Below are positions 60,827-64,000 of a DNA stretch of 64,000 nt, piece after piece. Positions within the stretch are counted from its first letter, which is position 1; each line of letters opens with the position of its first letter. This stretch comes from Candidatus Lambdaproteobacteria bacterium RIFOXYD2_FULL_56_26 (GTDB lineage: Bacteria; SAR324; XYD2-FULL-50-16). The notes below the pieces were generated by a model. That model saw only the letters and a list, made by a program, of their open reading frames with translations. It ran no database searches and had not been told where the DNA came from. Position numbers and translations under genes: made by a program. The stretch covers positions 62,001-126,000 of the forward strand of contig MFNF01000001.1 in assembly GCA_001783715.1 (NCBI GenBank), in the 5' to 3' direction.

Positions 60827-62977
60827 ATGCCAGACCCCTTCGTGAACCAACCTTTCCGCCTTTTGGGACTGGGTCCCAAAGTCCAACCGGTCCTAGATGC
60901 CCTCAACCTGCCGACCGGTTCCTTCTGGCCGGAAGTGGTGGTGGTGACCGAGCCGAATCCGGCGTTGTGGATGGAAGTGGTGTTGGCACAGCGGCCCCAG
61001 GTGTTGCTCCTGGAAGCTTGGGGGCCGAGTCCCGAACTGGCGGCTTTTACCGCCGAACTGGGCCAGATGAAGGAACACCGAAGGCCCAGGGTGTTTTTGG
61101 TTTTGGAGGACCTCCAGGCCTACTGTGACGAATGGGTTTCCGCCGGTTGGCCGGTGCAGGTCAAAGGAGTCCCATCCTTTCTGCTGGCCTCCAAAGACCA
61201 ACTGGCCCCGGAAGAGGAAGCGGAAGAAGACTACCAAGCGATCGACCCCAAACCAACCTACAGCTTTGCCCCCAAGGGCGGATTGCGGCCCCTGGGCAAC
61301 TTGGGTGCCGATGCTTTTGAGGGGTTCACTTGGAAAGGCCGGAACTTCGAGCCCAAAGAGTTTTTTGAGTTGATCTCCTACCTCAAGGAAGGAGCCAGCC
61401 CCCTGCCCCAGTCCCAAAGTTTTTTTCTCTACGACCACCAACTGTACCTGCGGCACCGGTACCACTTCAAGGAAATGGAGTCTTTTCCCGGTGCGGGCCT
61501 CAACTTTGAACATGTGGCGGACCAACACGACTTGGTCGGGGAAAACACCCAGGTCTTTGCCCTCAAGCTCAAGGACCAACTGCTGGAACTGGGGCACTTT
61601 TTTATCGCCCGCCGGGCCTGGGCCGATCCGCTTTGGCTCAAGGAACATCTCTTGGTTGAACTCAAGACCGACCACAAGGTGCTCGACCTTTTTGCCCGGT
61701 ACCACCTGACCCAAGCCGGATTTCGGTTGGGCACCGGCAAGGGGACGGTTAAACTGGACCTGACTCGGCAAGCCTCGGGGTTTGATTGGCCCGAAGAACT
61801 CTGGGCGATTCCGTTTTTTGAAGACCTCAAGGAAGAACAGATGGAGGTAGAGCTGCCTCCGCAAAACCAAATGACCGTTGAGGACATCCTGCGCACCCGG
61901 GAGAGCCTCTTCCGGCGCAAGGACACCTTGAACGAACGGCACAAGGCCCATGAAGGGGCCAAGCTGCTCAAGGCCCAGGAAGAGGACATCAAATTGATGG
62001 CCAGGCGCAAGCTGGAGCTGCTGGGCCAGTTGATGGAACGGGCGGTGGTGGTGGACCCGGAGTCCCACGAGATGATCCTCAAACTGGGCCAGGACTGTCT
62101 GGTGTTTTATGAGGACGACATGGTGGCCCGGCAGATCAGCCGCCACCTCCAGGGGACCGGCAAGATTCTGGCCTTTGACATCGGCGGTTTTTCCAACCTC
62201 CAGGGCCTGTTGACCTACAAAACCGACCATTTGGTCCCCTTCCTCAGCCACGGGCATATCCTGGTGACCCAGAGGAGCAAGGATTTTCTGCTCAAAAAGT
62301 TGGACCGGATCGCCGAGGAATCCAAACGCCAGCAGGGCATCAAGACCGATCTGGCGGCCCAGGAGCTTTTCGACGAAAAGGAAAAACTGTTGGAAGGGTT
62401 TGAAAATTTGGCCTGCCTGGAAGCTTGGTCTCGGTGCCAACCTGCCTTTGCCACCTGGATCCCCCGGGTTGCCGAGGAACTGGCCGAAACGGCCCGCAAC
62501 CGGGTGGCCTTGGGGATGGGGGGTGTGGACCATGACGCTGTGGTGGTAGCCAAGTCTGGCTACCATTACGCTAGGCTCAAACAGTTGGTGGCCCCCATGA
62601 GCCTCAAGGGCTTTGTGGCCCAGCCGGAATTGTTGGCCAGCTTGCCCGAGACCGAAGGCCAAACGGTGGAAGAGCAACAAAAACGGCTGGCCCAAGAGAA
62701 CGCCACAAGGCTGGCCCGGTACTTTGCCCAGGTGGCCGAGGAACTCCGTTCTTCAGACGCAAACCTGATCTTTTTGGACCAGGACCTCTCCTTGGGCCTG
62801 CCGTTGCTCAACCACCTGCGCCGCTCCGAAGGTTTGCAGGACCGGGTTTGGGTCCTGCTCTTGGAACGTCCCCTGACGCTCGAACAGATGGACCTGGTCC
62901 TGGACCTCAAGACCCTGCCTTTGTACCTGGGGCGGCACAGCTCGCACCTGGGCAGCAACTGGAGCCGGTTTTTTTAA
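60827..62977 (+). CDS. Large uncharacterised protein (716 aa)
   Basis: Continuous ORF, MPDPFVNQPFRLLGLGPKVQPVLDALNL...WSRFF; no family recognised. Confidence 0.75.
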   Translation: MPDPFVNQPFRLLGLGPKVQPVLDALNLPTGSFWPEVVVVTEPNPALWMEVVLAQRPQVLLLEAWGPSPELAAFTAELGQMKEHRRPRVFLVLEDLQAYCDEWVSAGWPVQVKGVPSFLLASKDQLAPEEEAEEDYQAIDPKPTYSFAPKGGLRPLGNLGADAFEGFTWKGRNFEPKEFFELISYLKEGASPLPQSQSFFLYDHQLYLRHRYHFKEMESFPGAGLNFEHVADQHDLVGENTQVFALKLKDQLLELGHFFIARRAWADPLWLKEHLLVELKTDHKVLDLFARYHLTQAGFRLGTGKGTVKLDLTRQASGFDWPEELWAIPFFEDLKEEQMEVELPPQNQMTVEDILRTRESLFRRKDTLNERHKAHEGAKLLKAQEEDIKLMARRKLELLGQLMERAVVVDPESHEMILKLGQDCLVFYEDDMVARQISRHLQGTGKILAFDIGGFSNLQGLLTYKTDHLVPFLSHGHILVTQRSKDFLLKKLDRIAEESKRQQGIKTDLAAQELFDEKEKLLEGFENLACLEAWSRCQPAFATWIPRVAEELAETARNRVALGMGGVDHDAVVVAKSGYHYARLKQLVAPMSLKGFVAQPELLASLPETEGQTVEEQQKRLAQENATRLARYFAQVAEELRSSDANLIFLDQDLSLGLPLLNHLRRSEGLQDRVWVLLLERPLTLEQMDLVLDLKTLPLYLGRHSSHLGSNWSRFF

Positions 62978-63149
62978 CTCCCGCCCCTCATTTTTTCCCT
63001 GCCTTTCCTTCCAGCCTAGGCTAGCTCCGTCTTTTTTTCCAAACCATTCAAGTTTTTTTCCTTGCTGCCGATACCACAAGGAGAGGGAATCTCGCCAAAA
63101 AAGTCGAGTCCTTGACAAAAGGGTCAGGGTGTTTTTGGTGAAAAGAACA

Positions 63150-63216
63150 AAAGTACTAAAATAAAGTGTACAAAAATGCACTTTATGGCCTAAAAGAGTA
63201 CAAATGTTGCATTTTC
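63150..63216 (+). promoter_or_regulatory. Putative operator region: three GTAC-containing repeats plus ATAAAGTG/CACTTTAT inverted repeat
   Basis: GTAC at 63153, 63168 and 63198 (15 and 30 bp apart), repeats AAAGtGTACAAAAATGCA / AAAGaGTACAAATGTTGCA; 8-bp IR at 63161-63168 / 63179-63186. Confidence 0.5.
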
Positions 63217-63307
63217 CTCTTTCAAGATGGCTGGTCCATTTCATGCAGTTAAGGTAAATAACCCTGTAGAAGCCCAACAGGCTTGAAGGTAAAGAAAGGA
63301 GAACCCC

Positions 63308-63409
63308 ATGACTCACAAAAAAGGTCGGCAACTGGTGTTGATCGGAATCCGCCGGAAAGGACAAAAAGGTTTCACCCTTTCAACGGAAGCCACCCGCCCC
63401 CAGCCCTAG
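63308..63409 (+). CDS. Candidate 33-codon small ORF with strong Shine-Dalgarno
   Basis: AAAGGAGAACCCCATG; MTHKKGRQLVLIGIRRKGQKGFTLSTEATRPQP*. Confidence 0.35.
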   Translation: MTHKKGRQLVLIGIRRKGQKGFTLSTEATRPQP

Positions 63410-63583
63410 AGGACTCCAACCGGGAGTTGGAGACCGGCAACGGCTCGGTCTTGCAGCTTCGCTCTTGGGGTCCTAGAGGTTGGAACCTCCGCAAGTTTCA
63501 CCCGGAATTCAGCCATTAAAAGGGCGATTGCGGGGGTTGGTGGAAGGTACGGCAGTGGGGTTCGTTCCTGTAAGACGCAGAGG

Positions 63584-63619
63584 CCCTTTGAAGCCCGGTG
63601 GCTCCAAAGGGTTTTTTTT
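63584..63619 (+). terminator. Strong Rho-independent terminator
   Basis: CCCTTTG-a-AGCC-cggt-GGCT-c-CAAAGGG-TTTTTTTT. Confidence 0.9.
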
Positions 63620-63706
63620 GTCCAAAATTCGGCTTTGAGGAAGGGAAAGTGCGGTCGGTCCCAACGGGCGCTTCTACGTGGAAGCGCCGGTCAGATTGCC
63701 TTTAGG

Positions 63707-64000
63707 TTACTGGAGGATGTACTTCTCCGGGTCCACATGCTGGTCCCGGACCAGGATCTCGTAGTGCAGGTGGGTGGCGGTACTGCGACCGGTGTTGCCC
63801 ATCCTGGCGATCAGATCCCCCCGCTTGACCTTCTGGCCCACCACCACTTCATACTTGGACAAGTGAGCGTAGCGGCTGACGATGTTGTAGCCATGGTCGA
63901 TCACCAAAAACTCGCCGTAACCGGCGTTGTTGAAGGTGTTCACCACCACCCCGTCTGCCGGGGCATAAATCGGGGAGAAGGGGCTGTTGGAGATGTCCAT
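63707..64000 (-). CDS. M23-family metallopeptidase (LytM), C-terminal part; continues past right edge
   Basis: IYAPADGVVVNTFNNAGYGEFLVIDHGYNIVSRYAHLSKYEVVVGQKVKRGDLIARMGNTGRSTATHLHYEILV. Confidence 0.93.
   Translation of the reverse strand: MDISNSPFSPIYAPADGVVVNTFNNAGYGEFLVIDHGYNIVSRYAHLSKYEVVVGQKVKRGDLIARMGNTGRSTATHLHYEILVRDQHVDPEKYILQ

Follow-up and report, generated by a model that had tools for sequence, protein, structure and literature searches.

The unit between positions 63100 and 63620 is probably a free-standing, LexA-controlled gene for a strongly basic, non-membrane protein of 33 residues, to judge from its sequence and that of its relatives. It occupies an intergenic gap (62978-63706) of the 64,000-nt window, by which we mean the whole stretch of DNA analysed, with a 716-aa gene without a Pfam match on one side and a convergent M23 peptidase gene on the other (Table 1). 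A preliminary description had listed here a GTAC repeat array, an inverted repeat, a leader hairpin, a small ORF and a terminator, and had proposed a regulated sRNA or small-protein gene that standard callers would miss. When the sequence was re-read, the three GTAC repeats, the inverted repeat ATAAAGTG-N10-CACTTTAT, AAAGGAG with the ATG behind it, the 33-codon ORF and the terminator were all found as claimed. The leader hairpin (AAGCC-CAACA-GGCTT near 63271-63285; -8.8 kcal/mol, z -1.0) is also present, but it is probably incidental because its fold is weak and it is gapped in the related genome G003. The small-protein half of the proposal, and with it the view that callers would miss the gene, is supported by the conserved protein, the Shine-Dalgarno sequence, the terminator and the operator array, whereas the sRNA half is unneeded, there being no Rfam family. 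What that description overlooked is the LexA-type nature of the array and the inverted repeat, and the status of the gene as a family-wide core gene.

Table 1. Features in and beside the intergenic gap (window coordinates)
Feature	Position	Strand	Basis
LexA-type box 1, AGAACAAAAGTACT; includes GTAC at 63153	63144..63157	+	rank with lexA-only matrix
LexA-type box 2, inverted repeat ATAAAGTGTACAAAAATGCACTTTAT; includes GTAC at 63168	63161..63186	+	sequence; conserved in L009
LexA-type box 3, GAGTACAAATGTTGCA; includes GTAC at 63198	63196..63211	+	rank with lexA-only matrix; conserved in G003
Possible -35 TGTACA / 18 nt / -10 TAAAAG	63167..63196	+	by eye, G003 alignment; weak
Shine-Dalgarno sequence AAAGGAG	63295..63301	+	sequence
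Small-protein gene, 33 aa, MTHKKGRQLVLIGIRRKGQKGFTLSTEATRPQP; ATG at 63308	63308..63409	+	family homologs and synonymous core divergence
3'-UTR hairpin adjoining the stop codon	63410..63474	+	folding and G003 comparison
Intrinsic terminator: hairpin 63579-63616, U8 tract 63612-63619	63579..63619	+	folding
Convergent M23 peptidase gene, 313 aa in full, running past the window end	63707..64000	-	PF01551, 1e-31

A family of small basic proteins

A DNA search of relatives returned a collinear match to the unit in G003, which belongs to another genus of the same family and whose ortholog reads MQTKEPQLVLIGIRRKGQKGFTLVKTQLSRPK. The two ORFs share an unbroken run of 17 identical residues, although 12 of its 17 codons are different; the 13 nucleotide differences are all synonymous. 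Protein searches recovered the core of the family, [KR][RKQ]LV[LM][IV]GIRRKGxxxF, in all ten genomes of the window's family (SAR324 clade), in one to three copies per genome. The comparison identifies the 33-codon ORF as a real protein-coding gene, because the core is kept with purely synonymous changes and homologs occur family-wide; conservation in relatives, which had been proposed as a check, was thus found. In a profile search of 52 genomes of the class, 11 gave a match, the eleventh being a weak one in another family (E 0.03), and the clear form of the protein was absent from the 42 other genomes. Searches of Pfam, NCBIfam, PHROGs and PDB with the family gave no significant match, and by these sequence comparisons the 33-aa protein represents a previously undescribed small-protein family. 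No small-protein study of SAR324 was found in the literature searched. A separate DNA match at the start of the ORF, on contig C16 of G005, was dismissed as chance, the true ortholog in that genome lying on C30.

In the C-terminal half both sequence and length are free to vary, giving totals of ~32-64 aa across the family, and the proteins are very basic, with a pI of 10-12. No transmembrane segment was detected, the best 19-residue Kyte-Doolittle mean being 0.5 or less in ten of ten members, and the small protein has a hydrophobic run of six residues only. The best reading of these sequences is a soluble, strongly basic, non-membrane microprotein. AlphaFold returned a low-confidence model (pLDDT 74, pTM 0.27) in which a short beta-hairpin is at best hinted at. 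A type IV prepilin, as suggested by KGFTL, was considered and rejected: no hydrophobic helix or stretch follows the motif, FTL varies among relatives, and the prepilin profile N_methyl (PF07963) matched one member only, with an E of 0.23.

LexA-type boxes at the promoter

The three GTAC repeats read as one arm each of three stacked LexA-type boxes (GNAC-N4-GTNC), and the array is most likely a real operator. Each of the ten family genomes has one full-length lexA (in the window genome on contig G000:C50; PF01726, E 9e-21), and before each of these lies a box of the type RNGTACATATGTTCA, 44-123 nt from the start; that of the window genome, GGGTACATCCGTTCTA, stands 56 nt before the ATG. The SAR324 box is of the GNAC-N4-GTTC type, RGTACN4GTTCA(CTTT); the literature searched yielded neither a LexA study of SAR324 nor a LexA box published for it. 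Scan matrices, in a 14-nt and a 16-nt form, were built solely from the boxes before the family's own lexA genes, so that no circularity arises. Over both strands of the 64-kb window, the 16-nt form ranks 63196 (+) second and 63143 (-) fourth, and with the 14-nt form box 1 ranks third and box 3 seventh; this gap thus holds two sites, 53 bp apart, out of the seven best of the 64 kb. Box 2, the inverted repeat, is weaker with the lexA-derived matrix (score 6.5), and the best matrix score of the window, taken alone, ranks no higher than the top 0.5-0.8% among stretches of 200 nt. The candidate promoter has no strict sigma-70 consensus match. In G003, its counterpart by eye in the alignment is TGGACA / 18 nt / TATAAA, and the equivalents of boxes 2 and 3 are AAGTGGACAATAGTTCACTT and GTGTACGTATGTTGCA.

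Among loci of 7-14 kb, the locus-best site falls at the promoter of the small gene in L068, L066/L055, L056, L054, L058 and L061, and the second-best in L057. Upstream of the orthologs the box is clear in seven of the nine other genomes, moderate in G003 and doubtful in G004, where the boxes lie at least 240 nt upstream. Six paralogs of a second group (group-2), used as a control, showed no strong site upstream with the lexA-only matrix. The copies linked to the M23 gene carry TTGACA...ATACA upstream, flanked by TGTTCACTT on one side or on both. The promoter-operator pattern WTACANWTGTTCACYWW gave 12 matches, against 2 in reversed-pattern controls, and genes beside sites of this or a related pattern encode an SRAP protein (PF02586, 4e-55), an integron integrase (TIGR02249, 1e-134) and, in two genomes, UvrA, the last identified by sequence rather than by profile. 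Most other sites of the related-pattern scan fall within coding regions and probably match by chance; no obvious LexA-type box was seen at the recA promoters. A search for the motif elsewhere had been recommended; the same box type stands before lexA, uvrA, the SRAP gene and the integron integrase. The GTTCAC direct repeats had also been considered as a phage-type operator, and this was replaced by the LexA reading because these same four genes carry them too.

Several other genes stand behind boxes of this type. The integron integrase (L105 1424-2380, G009:C157, from a SAR324 MAG) has one ~78 nt upstream, and the two uvrA genes (L145, L146; G006:C9, G002:C11) have AAGTACAAATGTTCACTTT upstream. 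A 90-aa Cys-rich protein on L096 (G004:C128), SDCGSIFFLRTGTCHVCQTCGASQGCS, lies behind a LexA-type box and by eye resembles the C-terminal zinc ribbon of class II ribonucleotide reductase. Boxes of the form ATACATATGTTCAC occur in L097, L098 and L099, with genes that by eye look like IS91-type transposases near those of L097 and L099. An ImuA/ImuB reading of L100, made by eye, was dropped since no profile confirms it.

Transcript end, genomic setting and phage-type copies

The terminator (-21 kcal/mol, z -2.8) is real; a simple scan for terminators did not pick it up, presumably owing to a mismatch in its stem. The hairpin that follows the stop codon has a 9-bp basal stem, GGACTCCAA/TTGGGGTCC, which is kept in G003 with one A-U pair changed to G-U and which encloses a variable stem. 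An 18-nt block (63464-63481) is identical in G003, and most of it falls within the basal stem, so that the conserved hairpin explains the identity of this part. From these two sequences, it is possible that the hairpin protects the mRNA or acts as a regulatory element. Rfam gave no match at the gathering score, and chance-level matches only at a relaxed threshold. A second ORF in frame -1 (WGPRG..., 63283-63519) was rejected, since it has no start signal and its identical block is the base-paired 3'-UTR stem.

The M23 gene is convergent to the small gene in the window genome and in G001, G002 and G006-G009, and also in G004 and G005, where a TPR-type gene lies in between; the M23-linked copy is thus present in nine of the ten family genomes, and in G003 the neighbours differ. 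The genes upstream in G005 (by eye transaldolase-type, RsmE-type and a 760-aa protein) also match the gene order of the window. By this shared gene order, the M23-linked copy reads as a resident gene. Genes that look similar to that of the 716-aa protein upstream (60827-62977) occur in G005, where the gene is syntenic and encodes 760 aa, and in G003, where it encodes 646 aa. The group-2 paralogs sit elsewhere and adjoin, in G002, G006 and G009, a family of ~92-aa proteins (YEYLNxxGDPxxFVCDGHIDSxxFRE) without a Pfam match. In G006 a gene of this ~92-aa family (L077 1614 onward, G006:C40) has a doubly boxed LexA-type promoter, and homologs occur on G008:C76, G009:C449, G002:C65, G009:C130, G002:C92 and G006:C59.

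Copies with the same core occur in phage-type settings. In the viral contig L069, MQQNSKSNTVPRLVLIGIRRKGQPGFTLSAKAKGAA overlaps the start of a P22-antirepressor-like gene (P22_AR_N, PF10547, 9e-38). On contigs C62 and C42 of the window genome, an S24-type repressor lies upstream of ...KKPTLVLVGIWRKGDRSF..., which overlaps a DUF3799/RecE-like nuclease gene. These two contigs hold related prophage-like early regions (L064 5400-7356 and L065 6600-7999), each with an S24 repressor, a small HTH-like gene, the microprotein and a RecE-like nuclease. Because repressors of the S24 type commonly undergo cleavage upon DNA damage, this setting is one that damage should turn on, which would agree with the chromosomal gene.

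Could the operators belong to another repressor with a LexA-like site, for example a phage-type or XRE protein, leaving the gene outside the SOS response? Two of the window boxes depart from GTTC (GTTGC, ATGCAC), and the prophage-like copies adjoin an S24-type repressor, with other intergenic sequences. However, the same site type stands before lexA in ten of ten genomes as well as before uvrA, the SRAP gene and the integron integrase, and we consider another repressor improbable. A slightly smaller chance is given to the RNA being the main product, a small regulatory RNA in which the ORF is secondary or has a dual function. The conservation of the post-stop hairpin in two genera with its identical block, the fold of the transcript (z -3.5), the structured 3' region and the strong terminator would all suit such an RNA, yet the 3' block turned up in two genomes alone, that of the window and G003, while all ten keep the protein core with synonymous codon changes, and no Rfam family was found.

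The relatives in the viral contig and in the prophage-like contigs of the same genome would also agree with a remnant or decoy of a mobile element, such as a phage early gene, left in the chromosome. We regard this origin too as quite unlikely, because the position by the M23 gene is kept in nine of ten genomes (two with an intervening gene) and the gene is under strong purifying selection; moreover, the phages may themselves have acquired it from a host. The reading as a resident, LexA-controlled protein-coding gene is therefore retained. With a lexA gene present, a box of that gene's own type upstream, and the box conserved before the orthologs, the gene probably belongs to the SOS response; it is predicted to be transcribed into an mRNA of its own, repressed by LexA and induced by SOS.

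Proposed mechanism and comparison with known systems

According to this model, LexA dimers on up to three promoter boxes would block transcription. DNA damage would activate RecA and lead to self-cleavage of LexA, and derepression would then yield an mRNA of ~400 nt, ended at the terminator and translated from the strong Shine-Dalgarno site. The invariant core of 17 residues, which may fold into a short beta-hairpin with a basic turn, would be the acting part of the product, the C-terminal tail being free to vary. Since the protein is predicted to be soluble and basic, unlike the membrane peptides of the SOS response, it may bind nucleic acid, RecA, a nuclease or a cytoplasmic division protein. 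One may speculate that it inhibits or modulates the divisome or replication during damage; a guess of similar, low weight is that it inhibits or modulates RecA or nuclease activity, as suggested by the phage-type copies just upstream of RecE-like nuclease and antirepressor genes. More tentatively put, soluble basic microproteins could form a new class of SOS effector, with which the host and, from their early regions, phages would act on a common target in the damage response (RecA, a nuclease or the divisome), an idea we hold to be possible rather than probable.

With this gene the SOS response would gain a small protein that is lineage-specific and had escaped annotation; for the uncultured SAR324 lineage, the analysis also yields a LexA box predicted in silico and part of an SOS regulon. 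The 17-residue core, which phages share, offers a small testable handle on a new damage-response mechanism.

TisB, DinQ and HokE are small membrane peptides induced in the SOS response. SidA of Caulobacter, of 29 aa, is likewise an SOS-induced membrane peptide and acts on the divisome (PMC4211646). The window gene resembles these in its very small product and in being a stand-alone gene under (here predicted) LexA control; in contrast to them, its protein has no membrane segment and is unrelated in sequence. With the phage early ORFs it shares the core motif, and those ORFs are predicted to be expressed on prophage induction; they differ in overlapping the following gene by ATGA, the window gene being free-standing and having a terminator of its own. 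As in LexA-repressed genes with GAAC-N4-GTTC sites, a GNAC-N4-GTNC operator lies over the promoter, and is common to lexA, uvrA, the SRAP gene and the integron integrase of these genomes. The SAR324 box RGTACN4GTTCA(CTTT) is, however, less symmetric than that of B. subtilis, CGAACN4GTTCG (PMC9578287 Table 1). By these likenesses and differences, the 33-aa protein probably represents a new protein family within a known kind, the LexA-regulated small proteins.
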